Source of the DNA: Kaiparowitsia implicata GSE-PSE-MK54-09C
Lineage (GTDB): Bacteria > Cyanobacteriota > Cyanobacteriia > Elainellales > Elainellaceae
Direction of reading: 5' to 3'
Assembly: GCA_019359435.1 (NCBI GenBank)
Contig: JAHHHI010000076.1
Coordinates: forward strand, 1 to 64,000
Length of the DNA: 64,000 nucleotides
Both the position numbers and the translations under genes were made by a program. Positions within the stretch are counted from its first letter, which is position 1, and each line of letters opens with the position of its first letter. The notes below the pieces were generated by a model. The model made no database searches, had not been told where the DNA came from, and saw only the letters and a list, made by a program, of their open reading frames with translations. Positions 11,662 to 19,033 of this stretch are shown piece by piece.

Positions 11662-12612
11662 ATGCCAAATCTCAAAGCCATTCGCGATCGCATCAAATCC
11701 GTTAAAAATACGCGCAAGATCACCGAAGCGATGCGCCTCGTGGCCGCGGCTAAAGTTCGTCGTGCCCAAGAACAGGTGCTGGCAACCCGTCCCTTTGCCG
11801 ATCGGCTGGCTCAGGTGCTATTCAACCTGCAAACTCGGCTGAAGTTTGAGGATGCGGATCTGCCCTTGCTGCGTCAGCGAGAGGTGAAAACGGTCGGACT
11901 GTTGGTTATTTCGGGCGATCGCGGCCTCTGCGGTGGCTATAACAGCAGCATTATCAAACGGGCTGAAACGCGGGCCAAAGAGCTCTCTAAAGATGGAATC
12001 AACTACAAGCTGGTGCTGGTCGGGCGGAAGGTAGTGCAGTACTTCCAGCGTCGCGATCAGCCAATTGCGGCTTCTTTTACGGGCTTGGAACAGGTGCCCA
12101 CGGCAGAAGAAGCGTCTAAGATTGCTGATGAGTTGCTCTCTCTCTTTTTGTCAGAAGAGGTGGATCGGGTTGAGTTGATCTATACCAAGTTTGTCTCGCT
12201 GGTGAGTTCTCGCCCAGTAGTGCAGACCTTGTTGCCGCTTGATCCCCAAGGATTAGAGCCAAAAGACGATGAGATCTTTCGCCTGACCAGTCGCGCTGGC
12301 ACGTTCCAGGTGGAACGCGAAAAGGTGGCGTCTTCTACGCTGACGGCCTTGCCACAAGATATGCTGTTTGAGCAAGACCCAGTGCAGATTCTGGATGCCC
12401 TGTTGCCGCTCTACCTGAATAACCAACTGCTGCGGGCTTTGCAAGAGTCTTCAGCAAGTGAGTTAGCCGCCCGGATGACGGCGATGAACAATGCTAGCGA
12501 CAACGCCTCCCAGTTAATCTCTAGCCTTACGATTTCCTACAATAAGGCGCGTCAGGCGTCGATTACCCAAGAGATTTTAGAAGTGGTGGGTGGTGCAGAG
12601 GCGCTGCAATAG
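11662..12612 (+). CDS. atpC: ATP synthase F1 subunit gamma
   Basis: This is the central rotating shaft (atpG in E. coli naming). The 316-residue product has the N-terminal coiled coil ([20 protein letters not shown]), the [10 protein letters not shown] signature near 90 and the C-terminal [18 protein letters not shown] helix. Around residues 195-225 it carries the photosynthetic-lineage insertion ([20 protein letters not shown]). That insertion lacks the two-Cys redox switch of plant gamma, as is usual in cyanobacteria. It is the last gene of the operon; a strong hairpin follows 31 bp after the stop. Confidence 0.97.
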
Positions 12613-12792: not shown

Positions 12793-15015
12793 CTAGCGGC
12801 CTAAGCCCAGCGCAAACTCAATCTGATCGGCCCAGTCTGGGAAGTCGATTAGTGGGTTTCGTGTGCCTTGGCGAGATGGACGGGCGATCGCCCCATTGCG
12901 ATGCCGTTCATACTCTGTGACCGGAAAGCGGCGATGCCAGTTCAGCAGAACTTCCAGACTTTCTGCCTTGTATTCTTGACTTGTGTTGTTGATATCGCCG
13001 GGATACCGCAGCAAAAAATAGAGTGTGGCCCGTGCCGCCTCACCCTTGCCTGATTCTGGCTCAAACAGGCGACCCACTGCTTTGCCACAGTCGGTGCGAA
13101 TCGTCTCGCCATAATCGGGGAAATCGAAATAGGGCTGGTTGCCACGAAACGAATTGCATCGGCTCTCGCAGGTGAACAGGTGGTGTAGATCTCCCCGCAT
13201 AGGTTGGCCCCGGTTATACCACGACTGAGGCACCACATGTTCGCAGTTGTAGGGCAGCAGCGATTCTAACAGCTCGATTTCGGTTGCAATCTGCTCGTCC
13301 GTCAGACCTTCCTTTACGATCTTTTCGCGCAGCCGTTCTGCCCGCAGACGCTCCATCCGCAGCGATTCTTGAATGATTTGCTCTGGGCTAAATTCTAGCT
13401 GTGAATAAATGCTGCGCAGCTTCAGATTTGGCTGCAAGTCTACCCAAGGATAAAGATGGGCGCTGGGGCGATAGCCCAGTACGCGCGCGTGGGTTTGTTC
13501 GAGCAGTTGATTGAGCTGGTGGAACCGCTCAGCAGGACTGAGGCAGGCAAACTGGGGCGCAATGTCGCGATAGTAGTCGTCGCGATCGCTCAAATCTGCT
13601 GCCTCATCGTAATAGACAATCTCGCCGCGTCGAAGTTGTTCGAGTAGCTCAAAATCCTGCCGCAGGTCGGCATCGCTATCGTCATCCCCCAACCAATCAT
13701 CTAGGTTTAGCCCATCTGAACTATCGGGCTCAGAGGGGGCATCGTCAAATGCAGGCGGGCTGGGCGGTAGCGCTGGGGGAAGAGGAACCTCTGCTGTGGG
13801 CGTGGTATTGGGTGCGGGTGGGGCGATGGACTGGGGCACATTGCCTAACGACACCCCCACGTGGAGAGGAATCGTCCAGGTAGCGACGCCATGGGGATCG
13901 AGGTTTGGTAGAGCCACAGCCGGAGCGGTGGACAGGGTATCCAAGGCTGAGGAGCGATAGGGGCTAACGCGCGGCGGTGGCGTGCCATCAAATAGCTGCG
14001 ATCGCAGTTGCCGTTGAACCTGATTCAGGGATTGCTGCTGCTTAATGTGTTGAACAATGCGACTAATGCGAACCCCTTCATTGGCGATCCAATCGATCCG
14101 ATCATCTCCCATGGATGGAGTCCACAGTTGTCCATCCACCGTTAACGGATTGCCATTGTCATCGAGCCGAGGCACGCCGGAATGGTGCAACCCCAAAACT
14201 TCCCATTGGTCGTTGAACACGGGCGACCCAGATGAACCGGGGGCGGTGTCTGTTTGGTAGTGCAAAAAATCATCGAGCAAATCTACCAGACGGTTTTCGC
14301 GCAGCGCTAACTGCTTGGGTTCACCGCCAGGATGTTGAATGATATTGACGTACTCTCCCAAGATCACCTTGCCTTGATCTTCGATTAACCGATTCCAGCC
14401 AAACTGCTCGATTGTGCTGTGGCCTGATCCTGCAGACGGGCTAGGGTTGACGGTAACCAGCGTGTAATCTAGCGATGCACTGGTGAGGAAGAAATCCTCG
14501 GGGTTAAGGGAATAGGTAACAGAGGGCACTGTGGCGCCGCCCATACCCATTTGATAGTTGAATTCTGCTAAAGATAGGGCGGCTGTTTGGGGCTTTTCTA
14601 TCACATGGTTGTTCGTCATCATCAACCGGGGCGACACCATAAATCCGGTACCGTAGCCAATGATATTCTGACGGCGATCGCGCAACAGAATTCGACAGAC
14701 TGAATGGGATGCAGCCAATCCATATTCCAGATAGGCAATGCCCATCAGATCGTTTTGCCCCAGAATGCGCTCTTGCACTAGCTGGCGAAACTCATCATTG
14801 GGAATGATGGCCGTGGGCAGATTGGTCGCTTCGGTCAGAACATTAGCGGCAATGGGGTTGCGCGCCAGTCGCTCTAGGCGCCTGCCCACGCGTTCTGCGG
14901 TGTCCACCTCTAGCAGCTTGCCCTTGTCGAGCTTGCGCAGGTTGCTACTGCGGATCTTGGCGCGCTGCTGATAGCGCTCAACAGTGTCTTGGATGACGTG
15001 CTGGGGAATTGCCAT
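12793..15015 (-). CDS. Trypsin-like protease fused to an Endonuclease I-type nuclease
   Basis: This 740-residue protein has two enzymatic halves. Residues about 100-320 form a V8/trypsin-like serine protease. The triad is visible as His137 (MMTNNHVIE), Asp183 (SLDYTLV) and Ser262 (DTAPGSSGSPVF), followed by the family segment LGLHHSGVP. Residues about 340-480 are a Pro-rich then strongly acidic, probably flexible linker. Residues about 490-735 match Endonuclease I (EndA/Vvn-like, beta-beta-alpha metal nuclease): NCEHVVPQSW (His593), RGDLHHL, NSFRGN, and the closing QGTRNPLIDFPDWAD. There is no signal peptide or membrane span, so the nuclease appears to be intracellular or released by an unknown route. 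The ATG at 15015 starts a 90-residue charged helical N-terminus of unknown role. It is a single gene with no obvious partner. Related trypsin-like proteins carry other nuclease domains (recalled); this pairing is unusual to me. Confidence 0.88.
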   Translation of the reverse strand: MAIPQHVIQDTVERYQQRAKIRSSNLRKLDKGKLLEVDTAERVGRRLERLARNPIAANVLTEATNLPTAIIPNDEFRQLVQERILGQNDLMGIAYLEYGLAASHSVCRILLRDRRQNIIGYGTGFMVSPRLMMTNNHVIEKPQTAALSLAEFNYQMGMGGATVPSVTYSLNPEDFFLTSASLDYTLVTVNPSPSAGSGHSTIEQFGWNRLIEDQGKVILGEYVNIIQHPGGEPKQLALRENRLVDLLDDFLHYQTDTAPGSSGSPVFNDQWEVLGLHHSGVPRLDDNGNPLTVDGQLWTPSMGDDRIDWIANEGVRISRIVQHIKQQQSLNQVQRQLRSQLFDGTPPPRVSPYRSSALDTLSTAPAVALPNLDPHGVATWTIPLHVGVSLGNVPQSIAPPAPNTTPTAEVPLPPALPPSPPAFDDAPSEPDSSDGLNLDDWLGDDDSDADLRQDFELLEQLRRGEIVYYDEAADLSDRDDYYRDIAPQFACLSPAERFHQLNQLLEQTHARVLGYRPSAHLYPWVDLQPNLKLRSIYSQLEFSPEQIIQESLRMERLRAERLREKIVKEGLTDEQIATEIELLESLLPYNCEHVVPQSWYNRGQPMRGDLHHLFTCESRCNSFRGNQPYFDFPDYGETIRTDCGKAVGRLFEPESGKGEAARATLYFLLRYPGDINNTSQEYKAESLEVLLNWHRRFPVTEYERHRNGAIARPSRQGTRNPLIDFPDWADQIEFALGLGR

Positions 15016-15666: not shown

Positions 15667-18576
15667 TTAATCGGGCCGCGTTGAGCCAGAGCCTAGCATT
15701 GCCGCATCGGCCTGTTGCTGTAGCAGAACCGCAACGGCTGTGGCGCTCAGGGGCTTGCCGAACAGGAACCCCTGCCCATATTCGCAGCCCATTGCCGCCA
15801 GAGATTCTGCCTGCTCTGCGGTTTCAACCCCTTCTGCCACCACGTCCATTTTGAGGTTGTGAGCCAAGGTGACGATTGTGCGAACCACCTCGGTGCTGTC
15901 TGTATCAATGCTCATATTTGAGACAAAGGAGCGGTCGATTTTGAGCGTGTTGATGGGGAAACGGCAAAGGTAGCTGAGGGATGAATACCCTGTGCCAAAA
16001 TCATCAATCACCAACCGCACCCCGAGCGATCGCACCTGATGCAGCACGTCAATCACCAGGTTGCCGCTGTCCATGATGGTGCTTTCGGTCAGCTCTAGCT
16101 TGAGGTTTGTGGGCAATAGTCCGGTGTCGGCCAGGATTGTTTGAACTTGCTGGCTTAGATCGGGGCGCACAAACTGACGGCTAGACAGGTTCACGTTCAT
16201 GGTGAGGGATTGGGCGATCGCCCACTGATCTTGCCATTGCCGCAGTTGGCGGCAGGCCTGACGCAAAATCCACCAGCCGAGGGGGATAATCAGCCCCGTT
16301 TCTTCTGCCATTTTGATAAACGTGCCGGGAGAAAGAAAGCCATTGCGCGGATGCTGCCACCGCGCCAGCGCTTCGAACCCGACGAGCGTTTGGGTCTCAA
16401 ACTGCACGATGGGTTGGTAATACAGCAATAGCTCTGAGTTTGAGTCTGAATTTGAGTCGGAGTCTGATTCTGCATCAGGGTCAAACTCGCTGCGGGTGAG
16501 CGCGGGCTGTTGCTCGTGGCTAATGGCACGACGCAGGTCGTTCTCTAGCTTGAGCCGGGCCAGCATGCGGTTGTGCATAGCGGGGTCAAACACCTCGTAG
16601 CGCGCCTTGCCTTGCGCTTTGGCGCGATGAACGGCTGTATCGGCATCTTGCAGCAGGCGCTCTGGTTGGTCGTATCGGCCAGAACTGAGGGCGATGCCCA
16701 AGCTAACGGAAATAAATACCTCGTGGTCGTGGATGGTGTAGGGCAGCGCCAGCATTTGCTGAATTTGCTCTGCTAGGCGCGTGGCATCGCGCGCGTGCTC
16801 TAACTGGTCTAGAAAAATGACAAATTCATCCCCCGATAGCCGTGCCAGTTCTGCATTGCTGGGGAGAAAGCCTTTAAGTCGATGGGCGATCGCAATTAAC
16901 AGCTGGTCACCAATGGCATTCCCCAAGCTGTTGTTGACGACCTGAAACCGATCCACATCCACCAGCACCACCCCAAACACATAGAGCGGGGTGCTTTGGG
17001 CATGGGCGATCGCCTCTCGTAACCGCTCAATCAAAAAGACGCGATTGGGTAAATCGGTCAGATCATCGTAGTAGGCATTGCGCCACAGCTTTGCTTCGAT
17101 CCGCTTGCGATCGGTGATATCCAACTGCGAGCCCGCCATGCGATAGGGGCGATTGCGGCGATCGCGCGCACTCACACCGCGACACAGCATCCAGCGATAG
17201 CATCCATCGTGATGCAGCATCCGATATTCCTGCTCAAGCTGCTCGCTCTGGCCCATCAGGTGTCGATCGATCGCCTCTTTGAGGGTGGCCAAATCATCGG
17301 GATGCACTCGGCTGTACCAATCTTCGAGGCGATCGCCCACGGTTCCAGCCTCATAGCCCAGCATCTCCTGCCAGCGGGCCGAATAGTAGATCCGCTGCGT
17401 CCGCACGTTCCAGTCCCATAGGCCCCCATTGGAAGACCGCACCGCTAAGGCATAGCGCTCCTCGCTTTGCCGCAGCAGCCAATTCACCCGCATCTGCTCC
17501 TTCAGCTCTACCATGGCGCTGGTGAGGCTCACCAGCATGAGTGGAATGGCCACCGGCACCCAGTAGGCCTCCTGAAACAGCAGCAGGCTTACCAGCCCCC
17601 AGCCCAGCAGTAACAGCAGCCATAGCGATAGGCGATGCTCTAGCTTCCATTGGTTTGACAGCCAACTCAGCCCTGGCCCCCCCAGCAGCAACAGCAACAG
17701 CAACCAGTGCACCCCCAGCCGCTGGAGAGAATTTTTATCTAATAAATTATTGATGGCCGTGAAGTCAAGATAGGCTTCTCCGGCAGGTTGGTCGCGGTTG
17801 AACGGCGTTTGTAGCGTATTGAGGCCGCCGTTGGCTAGACCAATCAGCACCAGCTTGCCCTGCAGGGCCTCGGGCGGCACCTCTCCCTGTATCACCTGTT
17901 GAAAACTGTAGTGGGGGGAATGACTCAGGTCGCCAATCCAGTTCACCCAAAGCCACTGATCTGCGTTGGGCAGCAGGTCGGTTGCGTCTGGCTCGTCTAG
18001 AAACTGCTGGGCTGCGACGAGGGCTAAGGCGGGCACCTCGCGCCGTCTTAGGTCAATGTGCCGCACGACGCCATCTGACTCTTTGCGATGGTTGATGTGC
18101 CCAAGGTCGGTGGCGACCGCGCGCAGCACCGCATTGGGCAACACCGCTTGCCTCTCTTCCGTCCATGACTGGGCCAGCACCACCGCGTTGAACTGGGCCA
18201 GCACCGCTGCCAGCGCTGCATCGTTGGGGTCAGACTCGGGCAGTAAGAGCTGGATGGCGACGACTTTGGGCTGGGCAGGGGCCAGGGTTGTCAGCACAGC
18301 AGTGAGGCGATCGCGCAATCGGGGAAACTGGCTGTCGGCGGTTTGGGATTCTTCTAGCTCGATCAGCACAATGCGATCGCTCCAGGGCAGATCCCCCCGC
18401 ACCTGAAACAATGCATCATAGGCGAGATATTCGAGCGATCGCCCGACGCCCAGCAGCACCAGCAGCCACAGCAGCGCCAGCGCCAGCAGCCCAGGCAGCA
18501 GCCTGCCCCCCAGCCGCGCGATGCCCCCTCCCTCATGCCGCCTCTGCGCAATAGTATCCAGCCAACGATTGATCAT
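15667..18576 (-). CDS. CHASE2-PAS-GGDEF-EAL cyclic-di-GMP protein
   Basis: This is a membrane sensor predicted to make and/or degrade cyclic di-GMP. From the ATG at 18576 it has 969 residues. A first membrane helix (about 26-45) precedes an extracytoplasmic CHASE2 sensor (about 50-285) and a group of three membrane helices (about 289-355). A PAS domain follows (about 370-495, ending QLDITDRKRIE). Then come a GGDEF domain with the variant SGDEF (581-585) and an EAL domain (GFEALARWQHP near 735, DDFGTGYSS, KIDRSFV). The cyclase I-site RxxD is absent. Between GGDEF and EAL, at residues about 688-715, is a low-complexity Ser/Asp/Asn insertion. The open frame extends 56 codons further upstream, but those residues look non-coding. 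No ribosome site is obvious. It is transcribed alone. Confidence 0.9.
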   Translation of the reverse strand: MINRWLDTIAQRRHEGGGIARLGGRLLPGLLALALLWLLVLLGVGRSLEYLAYDALFQVRGDLPWSDRIVLIELEESQTADSQFPRLRDRLTAVLTTLAPAQPKVVAIQLLLPESDPNDAALAAVLAQFNAVVLAQSWTEERQAVLPNAVLRAVATDLGHINHRKESDGVVRHIDLRRREVPALALVAAQQFLDEPDATDLLPNADQWLWVNWIGDLSHSPHYSFQQVIQGEVPPEALQGKLVLIGLANGGLNTLQTPFNRDQPAGEAYLDFTAINNLLDKNSLQRLGVHWLLLLLLLGGPGLSWLSNQWKLEHRLSLWLLLLLGWGLVSLLLFQEAYWVPVAIPLMLVSLTSAMVELKEQMRVNWLLRQSEERYALAVRSSNGGLWDWNVRTQRIYYSARWQEMLGYEAGTVGDRLEDWYSRVHPDDLATLKEAIDRHLMGQSEQLEQEYRMLHHDGCYRWMLCRGVSARDRRNRPYRMAGSQLDITDRKRIEAKLWRNAYYDDLTDLPNRVFLIERLREAIAHAQSTPLYVFGVVLVDVDRFQVVNNSLGNAIGDQLLIAIAHRLKGFLPSNAELARLSGDEFVIFLDQLEHARDATRLAEQIQQMLALPYTIHDHEVFISVSLGIALSSGRYDQPERLLQDADTAVHRAKAQGKARYEVFDPAMHNRMLARLKLENDLRRAISHEQQPALTRSEFDPDAESDSDSNSDSNSELLLYYQPIVQFETQTLVGFEALARWQHPRNGFLSPGTFIKMAEETGLIIPLGWWILRQACRQLRQWQDQWAIAQSLTMNVNLSSRQFVRPDLSQQVQTILADTGLLPTNLKLELTESTIMDSGNLVIDVLHQVRSLGVRLVIDDFGTGYSSLSYLCRFPINTLKIDRSFVSNMSIDTDSTEVVRTIVTLAHNLKMDVVAEGVETAEQAESLAAMGCEYGQGFLFGKPLSATAVAVLLQQQADAAMLGSGSTRPD
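16432..16515. repeat. Degenerate short tandem repeat coding a Ser/Asp linker
   Basis: Within the CHASE2-GGDEF-EAL gene, 16432-16515 contains repeated GAGTCTGA/GAGTTTGA-like units. They encode an acidic Ser/Asp/Asn run where related proteins have almost no linker. It looks like repeat expansion within the coding frame. Confidence 0.6.
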
Positions 18577-19033
18577 GTCAGGTGAGTGGTTCAGCCAAGT
18601 TAGGCAATCATTGTGCCGTGCTTTTGGACGGTTCCCCTGTGAGGGCACGCCCCTCGTGTCTTGGCGAGGCTCAATCGTTGGGGCTAACGCCTCCGCAAAA
18701 ACACTTACATTATGAGGGGAGAGTGAACCCGTGCGGCATTCCACTCTACATCTTTGTCGAATCTTTCAACTTGGGTGGCGCTGGCTTGGGTTGGACTTTA
18801 TGTCCAGCAACTACCGGGCTTTGTGAGCCACCAGTATGAAAACCCCACCGCCACCCACGCTCTCCTTCAGCAGTCCATAGAGATCGTATCTTTATGGACT
18901 GCCACTCTTAAGAAAGCCCTAAAGGGTCAGAACCCCGGTTTCTTCTGAGGTGATTTCTGGCTCTCGCCACTCTTTCAAAGAAACCGGGGTTCTCTCGTCC
19001 GCCCATCATTCAGACACCACCCCAGCGGCCCCG
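18577..19033. terminator. Spacer with two inverted repeats
   Basis: No gene is seen. AGAACCCCGGTTTCTT (18929-18944) and its exact reverse complement (18978-18993) form a 16-bp stem with a 33-nt loop just after the helicase stop. It probably terminates the helicase gene. CAGTCCATA (18871-18879) pairs with TATGGACTG (18893-18901). The rest must hold the promoter of the CHASE2 gene. Confidence 0.55.

Follow-up and report, generated by a model that had tools for sequence, protein, structure and literature searches.

A single gene in the window, the 64,000-nucleotide stretch of Kaiparowitsia implicata GSE-PSE-MK54-09C DNA analysed as a whole, encodes a protein of 740 residues in which a V8-type trypsin-like protease and an Endonuclease I nuclease are joined in one ATG-initiated frame (Table 1). 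We propose that this protein acts as a cytosolic, protease-gated DNase, a one-gene device for defence or programmed cell death, a reading towards which we lean, if only gently. Both halves are intact, as a sequence-only reading of this DNA had held: Trypsin_2 at residues 122–276 (E 4e-22, 79.9 bits; Pfam cut-off 27.6) and Endonuclease_1 (PF04231) at residues 589–726 (E 4e-25, 89.4 bits; cut-off 25) score far above their thresholds. Fusion through an assembly artefact or sequencing error is ruled out, because the identical fused frame recurs in many independent genomes, among them cyanobacteria, Streptomyces, Proteobacteria, Planctomycetota and Chloroflexota.

Table 1. Features of the protease–nuclease gene in window coordinates
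Feature	Residues	Position	Strand	Basis
Whole gene: helical N-domain, V8-type trypsin-like protease, linker and Endonuclease I nuclease	1–740	12793..15015	minus	ORF, Pfam, homologue conservation, AlphaFold
N-terminal helical domain	1–63	14827..15015	minus	Conservation, AlphaFold helices; no Pfam family
Serine protease and leading helix; H137/D183/S262, V8-like S1 residues T257 and H277	82–345	13981..14772	minus	Pfam, V8 alignment, conservation, Foldseek
Disordered Pro/Asp-rich linker	346–445	13681..13980	minus	Low pLDDT at most residues; composition
Conserved linker strand motif GVATWTIPLHVGVSLG	376–391	13843..13890	minus	Pattern matches in relatives versus shuffled linkers
Nuclease region: helical N-terminal part (YYDxxxDxxxRxxYY) and Endonuclease I core	446–740	12796..13680	minus	Conservation, AlphaFold
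Endonuclease I core: E592-H593 and N621 at nuclease motif positions; C591, C616, C620, C643		12838..13251	minus	Pfam, alignments

The gene is present once in the 6.7-Mb cyanobacterial host genome, in which genome searches found neither a second Endonuclease I gene nor a partner with the same N-terminal domain and protease; beyond the gene itself, they gave an EAD1-like trypsin and a weak fragment. The earlier suggestion of a phage or defence context finds no backing at this locus. The window copy stands alone between genes for ATP synthase gamma (11662–12612, plus strand) and a CHASE2-PAS-GGDEF-EAL protein (also called CHASE2-GGDEF-EAL; 15667–18744, minus strand), neither of which suggests a joint role with the protease–nuclease, and it adjoins neither a defence gene nor a sensor nor an S8 gene. 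Elsewhere in the host genome (L083; G000:C6, about 18.8–19.4 kb) another trypsin-like gene has an N-terminus that is EAD1-like by eye, with an EAD1-like gene two genes off; judged from sequence, this locus is probably a separate conflict system.

The first ~90 residues had been described as charged and of unknown nature. They indeed match no Pfam family at E 0.001, known adapter domains included, but about the first 63 form a conserved helical domain rather than mere charged filler: AlphaFold confidently places helices at residues 5–17, 19–30, 40–52 and 54–63, and R14, R22 and R46 are invariant in 24 diverse relatives. This domain is common to relatives with differing C-terminal enzymes. The same Pfam approach that detected EAD1 and EAD5 in trypsins encoded beside relatives (at loci L027 and L017, respectively) gave no EAD match (EAD1, EAD5) at the N-terminus of the window protein.

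The protease domain carries the catalytic triad previously assigned to it, His137/Asp183/Ser262, identical in 85/85 relatives, and aligns to the V8 and Spl proteases. Residues T257 (84/85 relatives) and H277 (85/85), placed by alignment to V8 protease, match by offset the positions in V8 of the residues known to set acidic P1 preference. With triad, S1 Thr and His all present, the domain is of V8 type, and a specificity for Glu/Asp is predicted. The protease is a confident region of the AlphaFold model (37 homologues as input), and its top Foldseek match is the protease domain of human FAM111A (E about 1e-11 to 1e-12, ~18% identity). FAM111A cuts substrates only when dimeric, the dimer forming via a helix at the start of the protease domain. 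Because helix 93–103 of the modelled window protein precedes the protease at what appears to be the corresponding position, switch-on through oligomerisation is a reasonable inference; FAM111A self-cleavage is independent of the dimer, however, and the analogy is therefore limited. Overall, the domain resembles the V8/glutamyl endopeptidase family and FAM111A in its triad, V8-type T257/H277, fold and preceding helix, and differs in the low identity of the structural match and in its lack of secretion.

The nuclease region has about the same extent as stand-alone nucleases of Bacilli and begins with a helical part specific to this family. It is largely confident in the AlphaFold model; a low-confidence stretch falls within residues 633–652, a loop whose counterparts in other cyanobacterial Endonuclease I proteins are longer. 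The motifs read from the sequence, C591-EHVVPQS-W599, D609-LHH-L613 and R719-NPLIDF-P726, are all in place and hardly vary among 37 full-length homologues, and the residues of the Vvn catalytic motif are present. Four cysteines (C591, C616, C620 and C643) occur without exception in the 37 fused proteins; among four further cyanobacterial Endonuclease I proteins, the three alignable ones lack them. In one Priestia stand-alone nuclease, Ile replaces the first. These cysteines may bind zinc in the cytosol. Pfam score and catalytic motif together place the domain in the Endonuclease I/Vvn–EndA family (PF04231; 1ouo, 2ivk), with which it shares the core motif residues and C-terminal NP motif, whereas the absence of a signal peptide, the four family-specific cysteines, the N-terminal helical part and the protease fusion set it apart.

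Canonical Endonuclease I is secreted. The window protein, as had been noted, has no export signal: it shows neither signal peptide nor membrane segment, its hydropathy in a 19-residue window peaking at 1.08. Judged by hydropathy only, its N-terminus reaches a 12-residue maximum of 0.42, against 2.7–2.8 in two leader-bearing Endonuclease I proteins of related cyanobacteria, the two of four other such proteins in which a hydrophobic leader is obvious. The hydropathy screen likewise found no hydrophobic N-terminus in the relatives or S8 partners examined. We infer that the protein acts in the cytosol, and nothing in its sequence points to one-step or injection-system export.

Between the two enzymes lies the linker that had been described as Pro/acid-rich and about 140 residues long; we count ~135 residues to the conserved N-terminal part of the nuclease, with 14% Pro and 19% Asp+Glu, and AlphaFold confidence is low through most of about 350–445. 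The linker is poorly conserved apart from a strand-like motif, GxxxWTIPLxVxVxLG. A loose pattern for this motif occurs in 54/61 relatives bearing Endonuclease I, 5/5 bearing a lipase, 1/1 bearing NucA and 1/1 bearing a papain-like domain, compared with 44/1700 shuffled linkers serving as control. It is missing from Actinomycete members whose C-terminal part has LVFLHGRSQQG, a segment suggestive of an alpha/beta hydrolase. In a second AlphaFold run with 45 sequences the strand was still of low confidence, with no confident docking on the protease, and the AlphaFold output, coordinates aside, does not show the strand or the N-terminal domain blocking either active site. Candidate roles for the strand are pseudosubstrate, edge strand and oligomerisation element.

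A search across genomes for the same two-domain order, proposed with the sequence-only reading, recovered full-length fusions in many genera and five phyla. Among the best 80 of 262 relatives retained from the genome scan, such fusions occur in Nostocales, Leptolyngbyaceae, Cyanobium, Methylobacter, Azotobacter, Methylobacterium, Planctomycetota, Chloroflexota and many Streptomyces. Other relatives have the first ~345 residues in common with these but bear Lipase_3, Endonuclease_NS (NucA-type), NlpC/C92-like (papain-like) or subtilase domains, and some have no C-terminal enzyme. The N-terminal domain and protease are a common chassis with interchangeable destructive cargo. Mapped onto a tree of the shared part, the cargo labels require nine changes, two more than the minimum, so swaps are few but real; support for the deep branches of this tree is weak. 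Distribution among related genomes is patchy: of 98 related cyanobacterial genomes, 18 gave any match, two had full-length fusions and two more had parts on short contigs. Relatives also occur on plasmids; no viral contig carried a confirmed relative, phage genomes giving weak partial matches only. Distances between the proteases track those between the nucleases (r 0.86, against at most 0.25 in 2000 permutations), which is compatible with a long-lived fusion and is also explained by vertical descent of the fused gene.

No neighbour recurs across most relatives, and no sensor recurs among them. Matches from padloc among 107 neighbours were scattered single ones, subtilase being commonest, a descriptive count for which no enrichment is claimed; they do not point to a defence island. 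Several individual loci have features of their own. A Mesorhizobium plasmid protein of 924 residues (L118:7779–10550) combines a trypsin-like protease, a domain of DNase I/EEP-type appearance by eye and a four-cysteine Endonuclease I, possibly a second nuclease on one chassis. In Cyanobium (L024:10054–11070, L064:10063–11079, L067:10063–11088), a gene for ~340 residues begins 10 bp after the trypsin–Endonuclease I gene and is a candidate partner or inhibitor; its L024 copy has no Pfam match. Streptomyces loci L023:5187–7247, L025:4654–6699 and L063:527–2794 (minus) have a chassis paralogue nearby on the opposite strand, for which Pfam shows the protease alone in the two copies scanned, LVFLHGRSQQG being visible in L025. 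In another Streptomyces (L034:5283–7898), an M36 fungalysin gene lies ~30 bp upstream of the trypsin–Endonuclease I gene, with similar-sized upstream genes in L029 and L037; the M36, M43 and M10-type metallopeptidase families are often secreted. A Planctomycetota contig (L015:5058–7124) encodes, two genes upstream, a 688-residue protein with a C-terminal PemK/MazF-like domain. Large calcineurin-like phosphoesterase proteins (L053:1225–4377, L054:5637–9143) adjoin cargo-less chassis proteins in two different phyla.

Turning to the coupling of this nuclease to a second protease fold, Bacilli plasmids encode the same nuclease as a separate gene, without a trypsin domain, just downstream of an S8 subtilase in 4/4 records. 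The two genes overlap by 8 bp in Priestia filamentosa and 1 bp in Lysinibacillus fusiformis and are 13 bp apart in Priestia megaterium; a second Lysinibacillus copy beside an S8 gene is unannotated, its nuclease frame broken. The L. fusiformis subtilase is of intracellular type, its best PDB match being 7xr8, 'Major intracellular serine protease' (E 7e-128); by eye, those of P. megaterium and of the second Lysinibacillus copy look similar, and that of P. filamentosa is more divergent. S8 genes recur beside fused forms as well: they flank the trypsin–Endonuclease I gene in Cyanobium at 113–304 bp (with 1–2 S8 genes in the two genomes searched), lie 246–407 bp from it, on opposite sides, in two Streptomyces clades, and lie 2 kb away in Azotobacter. 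In another Cyanobium an S8 gene is 1.5 kb from a trypsin–lipase gene, and in a Pirellulales protein an S8 subtilase is fused to the chassis. Since related genomes are not independent, these adjacencies are counted as some five lineages, to which the Pirellulales fusion is added. The chance probability per tested adjacency is 0.0009–0.007, each below 0.01, under a simple, conservative uniform model; the loci were chosen for the gene itself and not for S8, but S8 was picked out post hoc, so the values are descriptive. Some phyla thus keep this nuclease fused to a trypsin-like protease, and another keeps it beside a non-secreted subtilisin. Control by proteolysis is the simplest account of this pattern, and the partnership with two protease folds that are unrelated strongly suggests that a protease gates the nuclease.

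Three described systems come close, and the window protein is not assigned to any of them because it lacks defining features of each. The computationally defined 'System 3' NucA–trypsin of Kaur et al. 2020 has a trypsin-like peptidase fused to or beside an HNH-superfamily endonuclease, in some cases associated with an S8 peptidase and EAD1-trypsin, and proteolytic deployment of the nuclease was proposed (PMC7159879). Its trypsin-like core component is also present here with its triad intact, but its nuclease is Endonuclease_NS, for which the window protein has no match at E 0.001, and none of its extras (a further trypsin or S8 peptidase, EAD1, STAND) stands beside the single window gene. Some relatives do have S8 neighbours, and the one at L027 has an EAD1-trypsin neighbour. 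A Rhizobium plasmid protein annotated as a DNA/RNA non-specific endonuclease has a protease region 43% identical to that of the window protein, and the relative at L080 shares its N-terminal domain, protease and linker motif.

LypC, from the CARD–NLR-like LypABC system of Caulobacter crescentus, matches the window protein in layout (N-terminal trypsin-like peptidase, flexible linker, C-terminal endonuclease), a likeness drawn from architecture; its peptidase serine is needed for lysis and its nuclease is dispensable (PMC13236601). Its operon includes the CARD-peptidase LypA and the NLR-like ATPase LypB, whereas the genes adjacent to the window copy form no such operon. Tuck et al. 2025 described nuclease–protease pairs in Hachiman, AVAST, Lamassu, DRT and canu, in which one nuclease family occurs with unrelated protease families, and showed by experiment that the pro-nuclease is unmasked by a trypsin-like or caspase partner and the protease switched on by oligomerisation (PMC12799240). 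There, as here, a nuclease is coupled to a serine or caspase protease, and the nuclease–protease coevolution has its counterpart in the distance correlation given above, which vertical descent of the fused gene also accounts for. Their nuclease, however, is a separately encoded metallo-beta-lactamase fold and their trypsin-like protease forms one protein with a sensor or partner, whereas here Endonuclease I is fused to its protease or paired with an S8 subtilase; the main text mentions neither Endonuclease I nor subtilisin (PMC12799240). Disordered insertions block the nuclease active site in those pairs; the place to compare in the window protein is the low-confidence stretch within residues 633–652, in its comparatively short loop. 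The earlier suggestion that the combination may be undescribed therefore stands in part. The kind is already known, from trypsin with NucA (Kaur et al. 2020), trypsin with endonuclease (LypC, 2026) and proteolytically activated nucleases (Tuck et al. 2025), but Endonuclease I on a V8-type chassis, and the S8-paired form, were not found in the open-access literature, most subscription journals lying outside this scope.

In the mechanism we propose, the nuclease would at rest be inactive or harmless within the fused protein. A stimulus such as phage infection, DNA damage or other stress would turn on the V8-type protease, the likeliest means being oligomerisation via the N-terminal helices and the helix that precedes the protease. 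Cleavage would follow, within the same chain or in a partner copy, at a site in the linker or in the N-terminal part of the nuclease that probably comes just after an acidic residue; Endonuclease I, once released, would degrade DNA and stop the cell. A latent nuclease freed by its protease, the core of the sequence-only reading, remains the best account, strengthened by the in-trans S8 pairing in Bacilli and the recurrent S8 neighbours; linker cleavage in particular is a guess at how the nuclease is freed. More tentatively, and with less assurance than for the window protein itself, we suggest a family of cytosolic protease-armed effectors with one chassis and swappable cargo, chiefly a four-cysteine Endonuclease I pro-nuclease that has also been recruited by intracellular-type subtilisins of Bacilli. 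It would be a second nuclease fold, besides the metallo-beta-lactamase, to be gated independently by unrelated proteases, with the linker strand as a regulatory element across cargo types.

In an unlikely alternative, the protease does the main work: lysis or death would come from its cleavage of host or partner proteins, with the nuclease accessory or stabilising. This was reported for LypC, in which S296A abolished lysis and H471A/N505A did not (PMC13236601), and it agrees with the existence of chassis proteins without a C-terminal enzyme and with a protease conserved to the same degree as the nuclease. A dispensable nuclease is nevertheless hard to square with catalytic and cysteine residues that are invariant in 37 diverse fusions, or with Bacilli in which a stand-alone nuclease gene is kept together with an unrelated protease. 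Weighing this counter-example against the logic of Tuck et al. 2025 and Kaur et al. 2020, we prefer the gated nuclease. Just as improbable is the same mechanism with another trigger, development or nutrient turnover, in which DNA would be cleared from dying cells of filaments or mycelia. Many of the hosts grow as filaments or mycelia (Nostocales, Streptomyces) and phage-defence neighbours are not consistently found, yet patchy distribution, plasmid carriage and unicellular hosts such as Cyanobium, Methylobacter and Azotobacter better fit a mobile, optional function.

Less probable again is activation of the nuclease by a partner subtilase, with the fused trypsin-like domain acting otherwise, for example on a downstream target or on the subtilase prodomain in a cascade. 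The Bacilli nuclease is accompanied by an S8 protease alone, S8 recurs beside fused forms, and a proteolytic cascade was proposed for S8 with trypsin and NucA by Kaur et al. 2020 (PMC7159879). Most fused forms, the window copy included, nevertheless have no adjacent S8 gene, and in the host genome S8 genes were found on other contigs only. A secreted or released enzyme scavenging extracellular protein and DNA, as secreted Endonuclease I, extracellular V8 relatives and the M36, M43 or M10-type metallopeptidases neighbouring some relatives might suggest, is very improbable given N-termini free of the hydrophobic leader that is clear in two cyanobacterial Endonuclease I proteins, and a Bacilli partner of intracellular subtilisin type.

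If the gated-nuclease reading is correct, proteolytic gating of DNases in bacterial death and defence would extend beyond one nuclease fold and beyond multi-gene sensor systems, and a single self-contained gene would carry both trigger enzyme and weapon. Two signatures, one nuclease occurring with non-homologous proteases and cargo enzymes exchanged on a common protease chassis, offer a search route to more such modules.
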